A DNA stretch of 64,000 nt from Streptococcus oralis (GTDB lineage Bacteria; Bacillota; Bacilli; Lactobacillales; Streptococcaceae), in contig NZ_CP019562.1 in the NCBI RefSeq assembly GCF_001983955.1, forward strand, positions 558,001 through 622,000, read 5' to 3'. Below, piece by piece: positions 42,056 through 48,323 of the stretch. Position 1 is the stretch's first letter, and every line of letters starts with the position of its first letter. The notes below the pieces were generated by a model. It saw only the letters and a program-made list of their open reading frames with translations, was not told where the DNA came from and made no database searches. Both the position numbers and the translations under genes were made by a program.

Positions 42056-43831
42056 ATGACTCAAGGGAAAATTACTGCATCTGCAGCAATGCTCAACGTA
42101 TTGAAAACATGGGGCGTAGACACTATCTACGGTATCCCATCAGGAACACTCAGCTCACTCATGGATGCTTTGGCTGAAGACAAAGATATCCGCTTCTTGC
42201 AAGTTCGCCACGAAGAAACAGGTGCTCTTGCAGCGGTCATGCAAGCTAAATTTGGCGGCTCAATCGGGGTTGCAGTTGGTTCAGGTGGTCCAGGTGCGAC
42301 TCACTTGATTAACGGTGTTTACGATGCAGCTATGGATAACACTCCATTCCTTGCTATCCTTGGATCACGTCCGGTTAACGAATTGAACATGGATGCCTTC
42401 CAAGAATTGAACCAAAACCCAATGTACAACGGTATCGCTGTTTACAACAAACGCGTAGCTTACGCAGAGCAATTACCAAAAGTTATTGACGAAGCTTGCC
42501 GTGCTGCCGTTTCTAAAAAAGGTCCAGCCGTTGTTGAAATTCCAGTAAACTTTGGTTTCCAAGAAATTGACGAAAACTCATACTACGGATCAGGTTCATA
42601 TGAGCGCTCATTCATCGCTCCAGCTTTGAACGAAGTTGAAATCGACAAAGCTGTTGAAATCTTGAACAATGCTGAACGTCCAGTGATCTACGCTGGTTAC
42701 GGTGGTGTTAAAGCTGGTGAAGTAATCACTGAATTGTCACGTAAAATCAAAGCACCAATCATCACAACTGGTAAAAACTTTGAAGCCTTTGAATGGAACT
42801 ATGAAGGTTTGACAGGTTCTGCTTACCGTGTTGGTTGGAAACCAGCCAACGAAGTTGTCTTTGAAGCAGATACCGTTCTTTTCCTTGGTTCAAACTTCCC
42901 ATTTGCTGAAGTTTACGAAGCCTTCAAGAATACTGAGAAATTCATTCAAGTCGATATCGACCCTTACAAACTTGGTAAACGTCATGCCCTTGACGCTTCT
43001 ATTCTTGGTGACGCAGGCCAAGCAGCGAAAGCAATCCTTGACAAAGTAAACCCAGTAGAATCTACTCCATGGTGGCGTGCAAACGTTAAGAACAACCAAA
43101 ACTGGCGTGATTACATGAACAAACTCGAAGGTAAAACTGAGGGTGAATTGCAATTGTACCAAGTTTACAATGCAATCAACAAACATGCTGATCAAGATGC
43201 TATCTACTCAATCGACGTAGGTGACACTACTCAAACATCTACTCGTCACCTTCACATGACACCTAAGAACATGTGGCGTACATCTCCACTCTTTGCGACA
43301 ATGGGTATTGCCCTTCCTGGTGGTATCGCTGCTAAGAAAGACAATCCTGATCGCCAAGTATGGAACATCATGGGTGACGGTGCATTCAACATGTGCTACC
43401 CAGACGTGATCACAAACGTTCAATACGACCTTCCAGTTATCAACGTTGTCTTCTCAAATGGTAAATATGCCTTCATCAAGGACAAATACGAAGACACAAA
43501 CAAACACTTGTTTGGTTGTGACTTCCCTAATGCTGACTATGCGAAAATCGCTGAAGCGCAAGGTGCTGTAGGGTTCACTGTGAACCGTATCGAAGATATC
43601 GATGCAGTTGTTGCAGAAGCTGTTAAATTGAACAAAGAAGGTAAAACTGTTGTTATCGATGCTCACATCACTCCACATCGTCCACTTCCAGTAGAAGTAC
43701 TTGAACTCGATCCAAAACAACACTCAGAAGAAGCGATTAAAGCCTTCAAGGAAAAATACGAAGCAGAAGAACTCGTACCATTCCGTCTCTTCTTGGAAGA
43801 AGAAGGTTTGCAATCACGCGCAATCAAATAA
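42056..43831 (+). CDS. spxB: pyruvate oxidase
   Basis: A 591-residue TPP-, FAD- and Mg-dependent oxidase that turns pyruvate, phosphate and O2 into acetyl phosphate, CO2 and H2O2. This is the main peroxide source of this lineage. The N-terminal PYR domain has the catalytic Glu in [11 protein letters not shown] (near residue 60). The central FAD domain spans about 195-345. The PP domain has the TPP motif [11 protein letters not shown] ending VVFSN. Strong codon bias suggests very high expression. AAGGAGAG precedes the ATG. Two cre-like sites lie upstream; it is followed by a terminator shared in sequence with two others nearby. Confidence 0.97.
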
Positions 43832-43885: not shown

Positions 43886-43900
43886 TTAGAGCAGAACTTG

Positions 43901-43927
43901 AAAAGATCGGAGCAATCCGGTCTTTTT
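43901..43927 (+). terminator. terminator, copy A
   Basis: AAAAGATCGG-AGCAAT-CCGGTCTTTTT. The same 27 nt occur again at 44356 and 47911. Confidence 0.85.
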
Positions 43928-43941
43928 GTGGAGGATAGTAA

Positions 43942-44289
43942 ATGAATTTAAATCAATTAGATATTATCGTTTCAGATGTTCCCCAAGTCTGTGCTGACTT
44001 GGAGCGTATTTTGGATAAAAAAGCCGATTATGTTGACAACAGTTTTGCTCAGTTCACGATTGGCAGTCACTGTCTCATGTTGTCACAAAGTCATTTGGTT
44101 CCTTTGGAAAAGTTTCAGTCAGGAATCATTCTTCACATTGAGGTTGAGGATGTAGAGCAGAACTACAAACGGTTGAAAGAGCTTGGTGCCGACATTTTAC
44201 ACGGTCCGGCTGTAACTGATTGGGGGACAGAATCCTTGCTTGTAAAAGGTCCAGCTAGTTTAGTGATTGATTTTTATCGTATGAAATAG
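43942..44289 (+). CDS. VOC (glyoxalase/bleomycin-resistance fold) family protein
   Basis: A 115-residue single-domain VOC protein with two beta-alpha-beta-beta-beta modules: LNQLDIIVSDVPQVCADLERIL, and IILHIEVEDVEQNYKRLKELGA in the second half. The metal-ligand pattern of true glyoxalase I (His/Glu/His/Glu) is incomplete, so it may be a ligand-binding or dioxygenase-like relative. GGAGG precedes the ATG at 43942. Its last 24 codons and downstream sequence are repeated at 47774, after the bacteriocin cassette. Confidence 0.85.
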   Translation: MNLNQLDIIVSDVPQVCADLERILDKKADYVDNSFAQFTIGSHCLMLSQSHLVPLEKFQSGIILHIEVEDVEQNYKRLKELGADILHGPAVTDWGTESLLVKGPASLVIDFYRMK

Positions 44290-44382
44290 GGCGCTTAATC
44301 ATTTGACGTTAACCTTAGCTATTTTTAAAACAGAAATTGAGAATATGAACTATTGAAAAGATCGGAGCAATCCGGTCTTTTT
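44218..44382 (+). repeat. 165-bp direct repeat, left copy
   Basis: Covers the last 24 codons of the VOC gene, the 66-nt spacer and the terminator. It matches 47774-47937. The coding part differs at several mostly synonymous bases, while the untranslated part is nearly identical (one deletion and three substitutions). Confidence 0.95.
44356..44382 (+). terminator. terminator, copy B
   Basis: Identical 27-nt hairpin to 43901-43927; terminates the VOC gene. Confidence 0.85.
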
Positions 44383-44407
44383 ATAACGGCTTTTAGCACA
44401 TAAATAA

Positions 44408-44436
44408 TTGACAGCGCTTTCTTTTTGTGGTACAAT
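44408..44436 (+). promoter_or_regulatory. bacteriocin operon promoter with cre-like site
   Basis: Consensus TTGACA, 17-nt spacer ending TGTGG, TACAAT. TGACAGCGCTTTCT at 44409-44422 fits the cre pattern with one internal mismatch (C for A) and overlaps the -35, suggesting repression by CcpA when preferred sugar is present. Confidence 0.7.
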
Positions 44437-44490
44437 GAAGACGAGTATAGGTGGATTGAGTGCTTTAAATAAATTGGGAAGGAGGAAATA

Positions 44491-44544
44491 ATGCGTTTTA
44501 AAAGCATTCATCTTATTAGAGCCTTAAAAGGAGGTTTCCTATGA
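44491..44544 (+). CDS. 17-codon leader ORF coupled to the bacteriocin gene
   Basis: Encodes MRFKSIHLIRALKGGFL. It has a very strong Shine-Dalgarno (GGAAGGAGG, 6 nt before ATG 44491). Its TGA stop at 44542-44544 overlaps the bacteriocin ATG at 44541 (ATGA). The bacteriocin's own AAGGAGG lies inside this ORF. The arrangement is a textbook layout for translational coupling. The peptide is basic with a hydrophobic stretch; whether it is functional or only a coupling device is unknown. Confidence 0.6.
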   Translation: MRFKSIHLIRALKGGFL

Positions 44545-44843
44545 AAAAATTAAAGAAAGTTTTAATTATTAGTGCTTTGGCACTTACTGCGACAACTGCA
44601 ACAATCGCTTATGCCTATCGATATGATGTGGAAGGTGGTACGTGGGAATATGGTTATACTTATGGAATAAATGCTTATTCAGACTATTATCATTCTGATA
44701 ATAACCATGGTTCTAAAGTTATAAATAGAAATAATGGTAATTCTGCAGTGGATAATGCTGACCCAGGTGTTTGGTCTAGAGCGTGGATTTGGGATGTTTG
44801 GGATCCAGCTACTTTCCGCTATAACCCTACCGGTTGGTATTGA
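44541..44843 (+). CDS. lactococcin-972-family bacteriocin precursor
   Basis: A 100-residue precursor with a Sec-type signal peptide (about 1-25, cleavage after AYA). The mature peptide of about 75 residues is rich in Tyr, Trp, Asn and Gly: it starts YRYDVEGGTWEYG and ends RYNPTGWY. No Cys residues. The N-terminal VEGGTWEYG and the Trp-rich end (WSRAWIWDVWDP) fit the lactococcin 972 family, whose founder binds lipid II and blocks septum formation. Next come the DUF1430 membrane protein and ABC ATPase that typify this family's loci. A hairpin after the stop probably raises its expression over the transporter genes. Confidence 0.9.
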   Translation: MKKLKKVLIISALALTATTATIAYAYRYDVEGGTWEYGYTYGINAYSDYYHSDNNHGSKVINRNNGNSAVDNADPGVWSRAWIWDVWDPATFRYNPTGWY

Positions 44844-44851
44844 TTAGTGAG

Positions 44852-44884
44852 TAGGGAGGGGAGTTGACTTCCCCTCTTTTTTCG
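44852..44884 (+). terminator. intercistronic attenuator
   Basis: GAGGGGAG-TTGA-CTTCCCCTC followed by TTTTTT, between the bacteriocin and the transporter genes. Partial termination here would give excess bacteriocin mRNA. Confidence 0.75.
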
Positions 44885-44901
44885 TATAAAAGGAGTCATC
44901 T

Positions 44902-46899
44902 ATGTATGGTTTATTAAAAAAAATATTAGCATGTTCTTCCTTTATCTTGATAACCCTTGTCGGTCTTCTCTTTGTTTACCACTATAAGAGTGAATTGTTG
45001 GGAGGTTATAGTCAGAAAGTTGAGGTTGTGAGTTCGACTAGTTCCATTGCTACAGATTTACAGAAAATTGCAGAAGATACTGGAACTGTTCTGGCGAGGA
45101 GAATAGTAGATGTTAAAGAAAATGAGAGAGGTGAGGTGGAAAACACTTACATTCCTATTGGAGGAGAACTACCAAAAGATTTACCCTTACAAGAAAACCA
45201 AGGACTTATTCAAAATGCTTCATATAATACTCTTTATATTATTGTCAAAGGAAATCTAAGCGCTCAAGATTTGGCAGGCAGATTGATTGAAAAGGGACAT
45301 CAAGCGAATGCTGTGGAAGCAAATTCTGGACTCACCCTCTTAAAATTTCTCTTAGTCTATCCACAAGCTATCATGATAGCCTTTGTTTTTCTAATTTCTT
45401 TTCTTACACTCCTGGTTGCGGACTATATTGTTAATATTCGATCGGTCAGTATCAAGAGAATATCAGGATTAGGTAAGTATCAGATTGCCCTTAGGGGAAT
45501 TTGGAAAGAGAGTCTTTTTTTAGTAGGGAGTGCTAGCATTGTATTTGTACTAGCTATTCTTATACTTATTTTACAAAGAAATGCTACATTACTTGCTATA
45601 GAATTGATTGGATTTCCCTTACTAGCTTGGTTAGTCATTCTACTTTTTCTAAACTTTTTTGCCTCCAATCTGTTTTATCATATCTTACAGAGACAACCGA
45701 TGAACCTATCCCTTAAGGGGAAAGCTCCCTTGCATTTGATTTTTGTTTTGGTTATTGTAACACAGATTTTTTCACTCCTAACGGTTATGTACAGCATTTA
45801 TGGGGTGGTGGATATGACTAGAAAAGTGAGAACTTTGGAAGAAGGGAAGCAAGCGTGGACACAATATCCTAGCTATTTTGCGACTCATGGTCTTGATACA
45901 GGAGAGGAGAAAGTTGATAAAGAAAGAGTACAGGCATTTTACGGTGACTTAGTCTCAAAAACTGAGCCACTATACATTGGAACTACTTTAGATTATATTG
46001 CTATGTCTAGTAATTCTCAGAAAAACTCTGATTATCCAACTTCTGAAAATATTTCAAATCAACTAAAAGTTAATCGAAAGTTCATTAAGCAAAGTGGTCT
46101 TCAACTAAACACAGAAGGACAAGCTTTCTTTGAACAAATGGGAGACTTTGATCGTTTGATTTTAATTCCAAAGAGTAAGGAAAATAAGATTGAGGATTTG
46201 AAAAAGGTTTGGTCTCGGTTTGTTCAAAAGGGATTTGCACCCGATAATGCACCAATTAGGAAAAATCATCCAGATGAAAGAGTGGAAGTTGCGACTTATG
46301 AGGGAGGAGAAAACCTCTTTATCTATCCGATTTTTACTTCTGTACATTACTTAGTTAATCGAGATAGTTTTGTTCACGATCCGATTATTATCGTGTATGG
46401 ATCTGCTTATGAAAGACAAGAAGTTGCAGGGTTTGATATATCAAACTATGTTTTTGACCATCCTGAGCAAGTCAGGGAAATTATAAAACAGTATAAAATG
46501 ACAGCACATATCGGAAGCTTTACTAATGGTCTTTATTCTTTTGAGTCAAAAATCCAACAGGTGACAGTGGAAAGATTGTTACTCTTGATTGCGTCGTGCA
46601 TTAGTCTAGCTACTTCCATCTTGTTGATGATTTTGTTAAATACACTTTATTTTTATCAAGGGCGTAAGACTTATTTTATTGAACGTTTAGCAGGAAAATC
46701 TCTTATTGTGATTCATCATTTTTACTTGCTTACCTTGATGTGTGGTTACTTTTTATTAGCAGGTTTGGCTACTTTCTTACATCTCCCAATCTTGGTTACG
46801 TTATTTCCTATTTTTATGGCTGTTGGTTTTCTTGCACTCTTTTTCTTTCAATTAAGACAACACCAAACAAGTAGTATCTTGTATCTGAAAGGAGGGTAA
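44902..46899 (+). CDS. bacteriocin-associated integral membrane protein (DUF1430)
   Basis: A 665-residue membrane protein. One N-terminal helix (about 8-27) is followed by an extracellular domain. Three or four helices span about 150-300 (including a VADYIVNIRSVSIKRISGLGKYQIALRG coupling segment, quoted as family-like). A large second extracellular domain covers about 310-555, and three C-terminal helices about 560-660. This MacB/FtsX-like topology with two membrane blocks matches the DUF1430 family linked to lactococcin 972 loci. With the next gene it would form an export or immunity pump. AAAGGAG precedes the ATG. Confidence 0.88.
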   Translation: MYGLLKKILACSSFILITLVGLLFVYHYKSELLGGYSQKVEVVSSTSSIATDLQKIAEDTGTVLARRIVDVKENERGEVENTYIPIGGELPKDLPLQENQGLIQNASYNTLYIIVKGNLSAQDLAGRLIEKGHQANAVEANSGLTLLKFLLVYPQAIMIAFVFLISFLTLLVADYIVNIRSVSIKRISGLGKYQIALRGIWKESLFLVGSASIVFVLAILILILQRNATLLAIELIGFPLLAWLVILLFLNFFASNLFYHILQRQPMNLSLKGKAPLHLIFVLVIVTQIFSLLTVMYSIYGVVDMTRKVRTLEEGKQAWTQYPSYFATHGLDTGEEKVDKERVQAFYGDLVSKTEPLYIGTTLDYIAMSSNSQKNSDYPTSENISNQLKVNRKFIKQSGLQLNTEGQAFFEQMGDFDRLILIPKSKENKIEDLKKVWSRFVQKGFAPDNAPIRKNHPDERVEVATYEGGENLFIYPIFTSVHYLVNRDSFVHDPIIIVYGSAYERQEVAGFDISNYVFDHPEQVREIIKQYKMTAHIGSFTNGLYSFESKIQQVTVERLLLLIASCISLATSILLMILLNTLYFYQGRKTYFIERLAGKSLIVIHHFYLLTLMCGYFLLAGLATFLHLPILVTLFPIFMAVGFLALFFFQLRQHQTSSILYLKGG

Positions 46900-46900
46900 T

Positions 46901-47536
46901 ATGATTGAGTTAAGAGATATTCAAAAGACATTTGATGGACATGTTGTTCTTCGTGATTATTCTTATCAGTTTTGTGAAGGGAAATCTTATGCCTTGATAG
47001 GAGAATCAGGTGCTGGTAAGACAACTTTGTTAAATATCATTGGAAAGCTAGAAACAGCTCAAAATGGTACAGTAGAAATAAATGGCATTGACCTTAGAAA
47101 GATAAAGGAAAAAACTTATTTTAAAGATTTTGTTAGCTATCTTTTTCAAAATTATGGATTAATTGAAAACAGGAGTATTAAAGATAATTTGGAGTTGGCT
47201 TTTATTGGCAAGAAACTTTCCAGAAAAGATAAAGAGGAACAAATGTGTGAAGCATTAAAAAAGGTTCATCTCCAGCTTGATTTGAATCGGAAAATTTATT
47301 CTCTATCTGGTGGGGAAGCCCAACGTGTTGCCATAGCTAAAGTCATGCTAAAGGATTCTCCAATTGTACTTGCGGATGAACCTACGGCTTCGTTGGATGA
47401 AAAAAATAGCCGAGAGATTATTGATTTGATTCTTGGGTTACAAAATGAAAAACGTATTATTATCATTGCAACTCATGATAAAAGCGTTTATGAGCGTTTA
47501 GATGAAGTGATAGTGGTAAGAAAGGAGCAGAAATGA
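46901..47536 (+). CDS. bacteriocin ABC transporter ATP-binding protein (lactococcin 972 group)
   Basis: A 211-residue MacB/LolD-type ATPase. Walker A GESGAGKTT (residues about 36-44), Q-loop YLFQNYGLI, signature LSGGEAQRVAIA, Walker B IVLADEPTASLD, switch His in ATHDK. The family-typical lack of a C-terminal extension suits a partner of the DUF1430 permease. GGAGG overlaps the end of the permease gene one base upstream, and the ATGA overlap with the next gene continues the coupling. Confidence 0.92.
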   Translation: MIELRDIQKTFDGHVVLRDYSYQFCEGKSYALIGESGAGKTTLLNIIGKLETAQNGTVEINGIDLRKIKEKTYFKDFVSYLFQNYGLIENRSIKDNLELAFIGKKLSRKDKEEQMCEALKKVHLQLDLNRKIYSLSGGEAQRVAIAKVMLKDSPIVLADEPTASLDEKNSREIIDLILGLQNEKRIIIIATHDKSVYERLDEVIVVRKEQK

Positions 47537-47724
47537 AAAATCGATTTAGTTTGACGCTTATCTTTTTTCAGGTAATGATAGCGGGCTCCTCTCTTTTTGT
47601 TATCCTAACTCAGTTTGGTTTACTTCGTCAACCTGTAAAAATCATCATACAGATGATCTGTCTTTTTAGTTTTTTATCTGTATGTATTACTATCTACAAT
47701 TATGTTCGTGAAGAAAAGGATTAA
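47533..47724 (+). CDS. small two-helix membrane protein, candidate immunity factor
   Basis: A 63-residue protein overlapping the ATPase gene by 4 nt. Two hydrophobic helices (about 6-26 and 34-55) flanked by basic and acidic ends (MKNRFSL, YVREEKD). AAAGGAG lies just upstream. No homologue recognised. Last gene of the bacteriocin operon; position and topology suggest self-protection or a transporter accessory, but this is inference. Confidence 0.65.
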   Translation: MKNRFSLTLIFFQVMIAGSSLFVILTQFGLLRQPVKIIIQMICLFSFLSVCITIYNYVREEKD

Positions 47725-47764
47725 AAGATACTGTTTTTATGAATGACTGTATGATAGTTTTAAT

Positions 47765-47845
47765 GTTCAACCTGATTGGGGAACGGAATCGCTACTAGTT
47801 AAAGGCCCTGCTGGTTTAGTGATTGATTTTTATCGTATGAAATAG
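47765..47845 (+). pseudogene. 3' fragment of a second VOC gene copy
   Basis: Translates to DWGTESLLVKGPAGLVIDFYRMK and stop, matching the end of the VOC protein at 43942 with one substitution (Ser to Ala) but several synonymous base changes. No start codon or upstream part is present. It marks the right edge of the bacteriocin insertion. Confidence 0.85.
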
Positions 47846-47937
47846 GGCGCGTAGTCATTTGACGTTAACCTTAGCTATTTTTAAAACAGAAATTGAGAAT
47901 GTGAATTATTAAAAGATCGGAGCAATCCGGTCTTTTT
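47774..47937 (+). repeat. 165-bp direct repeat, right copy
   Basis: Right-hand copy of 44218-44382, including the terminator. The two copies enclose about 3.4 kb that holds exactly the bacteriocin operon and its promoter. Confidence 0.95.
47911..47937 (+). terminator. terminator, copy C
   Basis: Third identical 27-nt hairpin; terminates the bacteriocin operon. Confidence 0.85.
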
Positions 47938-48031: not shown

Positions 48032-48062
48032 ATGATTCATAAAAATGAAAGAGGTTTTGAAA

Positions 48063-48323
48063 ATGTCTGAAAAACAAATGAAAATTTTGGGTTGGGTAGC
48101 GACCTTCATGTCCGTTATGATGTATGTCTCTTACTTCCCACAAATCATGAACAACTTGGCTGGTCAAAAAGGCAACTTCATCCAACCCTTAGTCGCAGCC
48201 ATCAACTGTAGTCTATGGGTTTATTACGGTCTTTTCAAGAAAGAAAGAGATATTCCCCTTGCGGCTGCTAATGCGCCAGGTATCGTTTTTGGCCTAGTAA
48301 CAGCTATCACAGCTTTGATTTAA
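48063..48323 (+). CDS. SemiSWEET family sugar transporter
   Basis: An 86-residue, three-helix PQ-loop protein. The PQ motif is in YVSYFPQIMNNL (residues 26-27), and the conserved Asn of the substrate site lies in AAINCSLWVYYGL. SemiSWEETs work as homodimers, letting sugars equilibrate across the membrane. Start 48063 (MSEKQMK) gives the usual length and has AGAGG 7-8 nt upstream; an in-frame ATG 18 nt earlier lacks an RBS. The gene next to it encodes a glucosidase. Confidence 0.88.
   Translation: MSEKQMKILGWVATFMSVMMYVSYFPQIMNNLAGQKGNFIQPLVAAINCSLWVYYGLFKKERDIPLAAANAPGIVFGLVTAITALI

Follow-up and report, generated by a model that had tools for sequence, protein, structure and literature searches.

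The window analysed here, a stretch of 64,000 nucleotides (nt) of Streptococcus oralis (RefSeq assembly GCF_001983955.1, contig NZ_CP019562.1, positions 558,001 to 622,000), contains a lactococcin-972-type operon of four genes (44541-47724) downstream of the pyruvate oxidase gene spxB. An original prediction, made from the sequence of the window, had placed this bacteriocin cassette between direct copies of the end and terminator of a VOC gene, and the arrangement is borne out. A 165-nt unit occurs twice, on either side of the operon, and consists of the last 23 codons and the stop of a VOC/glyoxalase-superfamily gene, its 3' untranslated region (UTR) and a hairpin terminator, in the following T (Table 1). 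The two copies are 90.9% identical, with 14 mismatches and one gap (E 5e-62, searched against the 64-kb window). The VOC gene on the left is intact, with an open reading frame (ORF) of 115 amino acids (aa), and the right copy carries base changes in its coding part, both as predicted. From these changes, 10 in 73 coding nt with a single amino-acid difference, it follows that both VOC ends, allele a on the left and allele b on the right, look like functional alleles, in agreement with the earlier view that the repeat is not a fresh duplication. A third copy comprises only the last 30 nt of the repeat, i.e., the terminator, and follows spxB.

Table 1. Features of the spxB-VOC locus, given as positions in the window
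Feature	Position	Strand	Evidence
Pyruvate oxidase gene spxB, left anchor of the island	42056..43831	+	TIGR02720, 997.5 bits
Terminator T copy 1 (spxB terminator)	43898..43927	+	one of three copies in the genome
VOC/glyoxalase-superfamily gene, intact, 115 aa	43942..44289	+	PF00903, 22.9 bits (cut-off 20.6)
Left repeat copy: VOC end allele a, UTR, T copy 2	44218..44382	+	repeat search
Promoter-like site TTGACA-17-TACAAT, extended -10	44408..44436	+	11/12 consensus
Possible 17-codon leader ORF, MRFKSIHLIRALKGGFL, overlapping the precursor start (ATGA)	44491..44544	+	inference
Lactococcin-972 family bacteriocin precursor, 100 aa	44541..44843	+	TIGR01653, 64.5 (cut-off 32.1); PF09683, 52.9 (cut-off 22)
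Terminator-like hairpin, internal, between precursor and DUF1430 gene	44853..44879	+	hairpin listing, folding
Bacteriocin-associated protein with seven transmembrane segments, 665 aa	44902..46899	+	TIGR01654/DUF1430, 193 (cut-off 189.35)
Bacteriocin-type ABC ATPase, 211 aa	46901..47536	+	TIGR03608, 256.5 (cut-off 254.85)
63-aa ORF, conserved last cassette gene	47533..47724	+	no family match
Right repeat copy: VOC end allele b, UTR, T copy 3	47774..47937	+	repeat search
SemiSWEET-like gene (MtN3_slv), right anchor in many relatives	48045..48323	+	PF03083, 35.5 bits (cut-off 23.7)

The cassette combines a precursor, a DUF1430 protein with seven transmembrane segments and a dedicated ABC ATPase, which is the operon make-up of the lactococcin 972/streptococcin family. 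The precursor also matches the solved lactococcin 972 structure (PDB 2lgn, E 2.8e-9); the TIGR01654 and TIGR03608 scores are each barely over the respective cut-off. Reading of its sequence suggests that the product of the 63-aa ORF is a membrane protein. Protein searches returned 2 clusters for the precursor, one of which (P0001) represents 251 contigs, and 11 for the 63-aa ORF and yielded no function for either. Killing and immunity are presumed functions of the cassette, and so is the secreted activity, directed at lipid II and the septum, that characterises the family. The promoter-like site is the top-scoring of 23 consensus matches in the promoter search region, where shuffled sequences gave 15.4. 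Of the complete operon with its own promoter and terminator that had been predicted, the four genes and a promoter-like site stood, and the terminator at 44853-44879 turned out to be internal. Past the last cassette gene, the hairpin listing has its next terminator-like entry (47911-47936) inside the right repeat copy, which would offer the operon a terminator. The G+C content of the cassette is 34.9%, versus 40.1% for the window. A competence box was not found for the cassette with four short strings, which is a weak test.

To place the locus among relatives, we used 284 genomes of the genus, one genome per species, in which G000 denotes the genome of the window. Homologues of VOC occur in 139 of them. 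The study set consists of the 131 loci, window included, with at least 80% identity (130 fetched); seven divergent homologues (48-62% identity) and the weak partial match in G046 were dropped. In all 131 loci except L119, spxB lies upstream of VOC. Downstream, loose ORF clustering, in which contig ends count as well, distinguishes 59 architectures. Between VOC and SemiSWEET, 19 genomes have no insert and 37 have one, the window and one further genome, G222, being among the latter; empty sites, for which the original prediction had suggested looking, are thus at hand. In 29 of the 37 insert-bearing genomes, T stands directly before SemiSWEET. When up to five mismatches are permitted around VOC, T is found just upstream of the gene in 127 of the 131 genomes and within 150 nt after it in 111.

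The three copies of T in the window have fold z-scores of -4.5 to -6.8, and with up to three mismatches they are the only ones in the G000 genome, all at this locus, so that we rejected T as a dispersed repeat. Across the 284 genomes, 145 have any copy and none has more than three (up to two mismatches). Fifteen genomes contain T and lack VOC; ten were fetched and the other five left out. In all ten, spxB precedes T, and nine read spxB-T-SemiSWEET with the usual bases after T, whereas the tenth (L201) shows no SemiSWEET. The unit of VOC, UTR and T hence itself looks like a module added at T.

Relatives of the DUF1430 protein with about 57% identity or more were examined for their position; matches of 41% and below were left out, except for G234, whose distant relative lies on a contig other than that of its VOC. 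Six of the 284 genomes qualify (G000, G222, G088, G093, G103 and G268), and a seventh cassette is the named locus L198, from a search in which the names were S. mitis, S. thalassemiae and Streptococcus sp. 596553. All seven sit at this spxB-VOC site. Only G222 has the cassette bounded by the repeat as in the window, whereas the five 57% cassettes (G088, G093, G103, G268 and L198) end on the right directly in T and have no VOC end there. These T-only right ends go beyond the original prediction, as do the terminator copy after spxB and the terminator-bounded island. The precursor gene is open in just two of the seven, G000 and L198. In L089 (G268), an in-frame TAG interrupts it at codon 26; in G222, a deletion of approximately 306 nt has removed it; and G093, G103 and G088 lack it and differ in the sequence upstream. 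The DUF1430, ABC and 63-aa genes are free of internal stops in all seven. The toxin gene is thus lost or stopped in five of the seven cassettes and the putative immunity genes are open, which is the 'cheater' pattern reported before for streptococcins of pneumococci (PMC6120550).

Between the two repeat-bounded carriers, G000 and G222, the DUF1430 gene is 99.9% identical at the nucleotide level, the ABC and 63-aa genes are 100% identical and the right junction is the same. Outside the cassette, identity is 96.1% for spxB, 91.6% for the VOC body, 92.8% for SemiSWEET and 91.6% for manA. With such a near-identical tract between divergent flanks, the cassette segment probably moved between lineages recently. 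The VOC ends of the two genomes show an exchanged pattern. The right end of G222 equals the left end of G000 in 73/73 nt, and the right end of G000 equals the left end of G222 in 72/73. Each exchanged allele is the closest among the 131 VOC ends, which comprise 100 distinct alleles; within 1 nt of allele a there are only G000 and G092, and within 1 nt of allele b only G222. Such an exchange is beyond a one-step transfer and needs recombination between the copies or repeated transfer, and we hence assume that the left and right VOC-end copies have probably recombined. A search for the VOC allele in a strain with the same cassette, as had been proposed, thus recovered both alleles in G222, with their left and right positions exchanged.

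With the alleles exchanged in this way, the earlier proposal of a right copy that arrived together with the cassette is not established. From nt 201 to 284, the VOC body of G000 is identical to that of the empty relative L033; these 84 nt end at a first mismatch that already lies in the repeat, and L033 continues b-like after it, with 4/73 nt different from b. As the VOC body of G000 is so continuous with a b-like relative, the slightly better supported reading is that the right end (b) was resident and that the left end (a) came with the cassette. Against this direction, comparable mosaicism is found in 27 of the 131 genomes at this cut and in 12 to 27 at ten other cuts, for which reason we downgraded nearest-neighbour mosaicism as proof of direction, and allele b is as closely shared between G000 and G222 as allele a. 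The UTR failed as a marker of the native copy because it hardly varies among several empty relatives.

On the left, the junction of the cassette sits in the VOC/UTR/T sequence that is common to empty relatives. On the right, VOC codon 91/92 is joined to non-VOC sequence, with AAC shared as read by eye. The 48 nt before the right copy (47725-47772, + strand) resemble the sequence following the cassette in relatives, with 1 of 1000 shuffles as good and a score of 37 versus 33 for the best unrelated window tile; a decayed copy of that sequence is suggested at most. When the flanks are joined in silico, they give an intact 115-aa VOC ORF and a gap-free alignment of 826 nt with L033 (95.8%). The repeat pair may thus permit precise loss of the cassette, in line with the earlier expectation that loss between the repeats would leave an intact locus. 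A right-hand VOC end is not confined to this cassette. In G005 (L090), SemiSWEET is inserted after VOC and followed on its right by VOC codons 95-115, and the sequence after this second VOC end is the one that directly follows VOC in VOC-manA strains. The repeat search of the 130 fetched loci found a right-hand VOC-end copy in L040 and L090 only. Because G005 differs in both cargo and breakpoint, there have probably been two or more integrations that placed a further VOC end on the right.

Taken together, we think it rather probable that natural transformation and homologous recombination brought an ordinary streptococcin-type operon to this place, within a rapidly changing island that follows spxB. 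The genus is known for natural transformation. The transformation model of the original prediction is reasonable. In relatives, the operon is one of several modules, and its end is directly the locus-specific T. A version of the cassette carrying a VOC gene end would have been taken up as linear DNA and joined into the resident VOC gene, with the left-hand VOC/UTR/T sequence as the anchor of recombination. Besides a homologous crossover in the VOC end, a further event would be needed on the right, in the resident VOC end, either an illegitimate or a second crossover. The two together would regenerate the full VOC gene on the left, and the remaining VOC end would stay, with UTR and T, to the right of the cassette. 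Transformation itself, a dependence on RecA and the order of these events are what we infer from the arrangement. Several observations weigh against this account. At the right junction, there is at most 3 nt of microhomology (the AAC read by eye) and an extra C that is unexplained. Between T and the G222 deletion, the left cassette parts of G000 and G222 are different in 16/145 nt, so that at least one further recombination has to be assumed. The a/b exchange can be read in either direction. The exact repeat occurs in two genomes only, in a sample of one genome per species, and the transfer is presumed. Finally, the insert does not end in T in 8 of the 37 insert-bearing genomes, and 20 of the 131 genomes are without T within 150 nt of the VOC stop.

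Two sub-routes, both compatible with acquisition by transformation, could account for the exchanged alleles. Gene conversion between the left and right copies in one carrier might have been followed by a double-crossover transfer between lineages. We regard this as possible, with reservations. The 99.9% shared tract points to such a recent transfer, and conversion between nearby repeats of 91% identity is an ordinary event; yet at least one conversion and two transfers are needed for the exact exchange, and neither an a/a nor a b/b carrier is found among the two available. Alternatively, illegitimate recombination between VOC and the sequence right of the cassette might have excised a circle (VOC end-UTR-T-cassette) that then entered another genome by one crossover in the 165-nt VOC homology that it carried. 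A crossover at the left edge would then give the G000 pattern and one to the right of the coding differences the G222 pattern. A single travelling allele (a) would in this way explain a on the left in G000 and on the right in G222, as well as the continuity of the G000 VOC body with b. We nevertheless find this sub-route doubtful, for no circle was seen, the left cassette parts differ in the 16/145 nt noted above, and both recipients would need nearly the same b, which only G222 among the 131 VOC genes approaches within 1 nt.

Quite different origins of the repeat fare worse. A mobilizable element might have entered at the 3' end of VOC through a site-specific integrase that acts in trans and cuts at the boundary TGATTGGGG, with the direct repeat as attL and attR; gene ends are where integrative elements insert. 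The gene-restoring insertion does look like one at att sites, as does a block of nine identical nt on the left edge of the repeat, and PF00589 has eight matches elsewhere in the G000 genome. The nearest of these is about 67 kb away in a genome-wide search limited to this recombinase family, and no transposase or integrase was found among the eight locus proteins scanned from spxB to the GH1 gene, the four cassette genes included, as the original prediction had already noted for the visible sequence. Since, moreover, the five 57% relatives are without the VOC end, the alleles are reversed in G222 and the G005 junction lies at another codon with other cargo, we consider integrase action very improbable. 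A fresh tandem duplication of the VOC end with later insertion of the cassette would at least fit a locus where the 30-nt terminator was already multi-copy; it has hardly any likelihood in our eyes, given that the copies resemble different functional alleles (the 10/73 nt and one amino-acid change noted above) and not decay. As for vehicles, the 72,556 plasmid records contained one DUF1430 match of 24.6% identity, on a Lactococcus lactis plasmid, and the locus was without a megablast match in 50,697 phage records. In viral contigs, the junction pattern had no match and the DUF1430 peptide pattern hit seven stretches, none of which encodes a relative. Plasmid and phage vehicles were rejected on these grounds.

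Other modules of the island are varied. An ABC exporter module (c8) occurs in 9 of the 131 genomes, two of them with a radical SAM gene; lactococcin-972 cassettes occur in 6 of the 131, and both types together in two. The c8 and radical SAM proteins match models of exporters and maturases of ribosomally synthesized and post-translationally modified peptides (RiPPs) far below the cut-offs, so that c8 modules are candidate bacteriocin clusters at most. In L134 and L157 (G103 and G088), the precursor-less lactococcin-972 cassette stands in tandem with a second module, a 68-aa Cys-containing ORF plus an ABC exporter, with T in between; in L157, repeated ATATAAAGAAATTGCAT units mark the start of the first (lactococcin-972) module. 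Further modules encode DUF3592 proteins or a protein with a LapA domain. Yet another one (c5) has a 51-aa ORF without match and lies between spxB and VOC in L095 and L153 and downstream of VOC in the other 12 carriers.

Single loci deviate in their own ways. L119 (G121) has no spxB within 2 kb upstream of VOC and instead a gene for a SNaCT7-domain protein, with a NACHT-like match just below the cut-off. L080 (G099) has a Tn916-type integrase gene and a ribosomal-protection-type GTPase gene downstream of VOC, and a T-like copy is present where the fetched sequence ends on the far side; in L081 (G108) an ISL3-family transposase gene lies between spxB and VOC. Between SemiSWEET and manA, L065 (G130) contains two ORFs, one with a Ppl/AAA-like PADLOC match (E 3.7e-16), possibly a defence-type module. 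In G222, the counterpart of the leader ORF meets a stop after three codons.

We may speculate further, with considerable doubt, that the 24-30 nt hairpin T is an integrase-free docking site. Recombination, either at T or at the module ends, would then add modules that end in T, stack them and remove them again. VOC would be one of these modules, and single crossovers could spread a cassette to which a VOC end is linked. With the competence machinery as its driver, the island would behave much as an integron array does. Integron gene cassettes form arrays of small modules that each have a shared short hairpin-forming end, and in this the spxB island is similar. It differs from integrons in that no integrase was found at the locus, that T by its structure is a transcription terminator, and that at least the window cassette has its own promoter-like site. 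If exchange indeed takes place preferentially at T, transformable bacteria would have in the terminators of gene ends a substrate for shuffling modules that has been overlooked. The locus itself shows in a concrete case how bacteriocin modules may pass between streptococci without transposases, and the VOC-end alleles are markers that record recombination between repeats.

In the parts of the literature consulted, streptococcin loci of S. pneumoniae and S. mitis are described as a precursor, a membrane 'immunity' protein and an ABC ATPase, with a sigma-70 promoter consensus reported for S. mitis streptococcins (PMC6120550, PMC11796350, PMC11921387). Published streptococcins are lettered A to G. 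Partial streptococcin clusters without the bacteriocin gene have been called cheaters or defensive loci (PMC6120550). The window cassette is like these loci in its gene set and in the existence of precursor-less partial clusters, and toxin-gene loss with open putative immunity genes, as in five of the seven cassettes, adds cases to the known cheater pattern. The term spxB has 0 occurrences in the main texts of the same three papers, and their streptococcin passages make no mention of a VOC-end repeat or a shared terminator (PMC6120550, PMC11796350, PMC11921387). A description of the island or of T as a module boundary was not found in the literature passages covered, a scope that excludes the figures and supplements of key papers.

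For the proposed route, there are laboratory precedents. Homology-facilitated illegitimate recombination and merodiploids made by transformation gave partial duplications without an active transposase, by a one-side homology anchor or by alternative repeat pairing, according to the passages seen (PMC3784515, PMC3240628). That work consists of laboratory crosses, whereas the window case is deduced from natural genomes. In Vibrio cholerae, effector genes of the type VI secretion system (T6SS) undergo sequential displacement that results in immunity gene arrays, as stated in the title of the study (PMC5361080); as far as can be seen from that source, toxin class and anatomy of these modules are unlike the streptococcin cassette. 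A possible parallel is offered by the pneumococcal bacteriocin cluster hotspots BCH-1 to -3, at which, in the part of the paper seen, different clusters alternate between the same identical flanks, a pattern attributed to homologous recombination (PMC6120550). From what is described of them, the spxB island differs in that it has cargo without sign of bacteriocin function, many modules ending in one terminator and a duplicated gene end. It may resemble these hotspots in pattern, as one site with varied modules of which some are candidate bacteriocin clusters.

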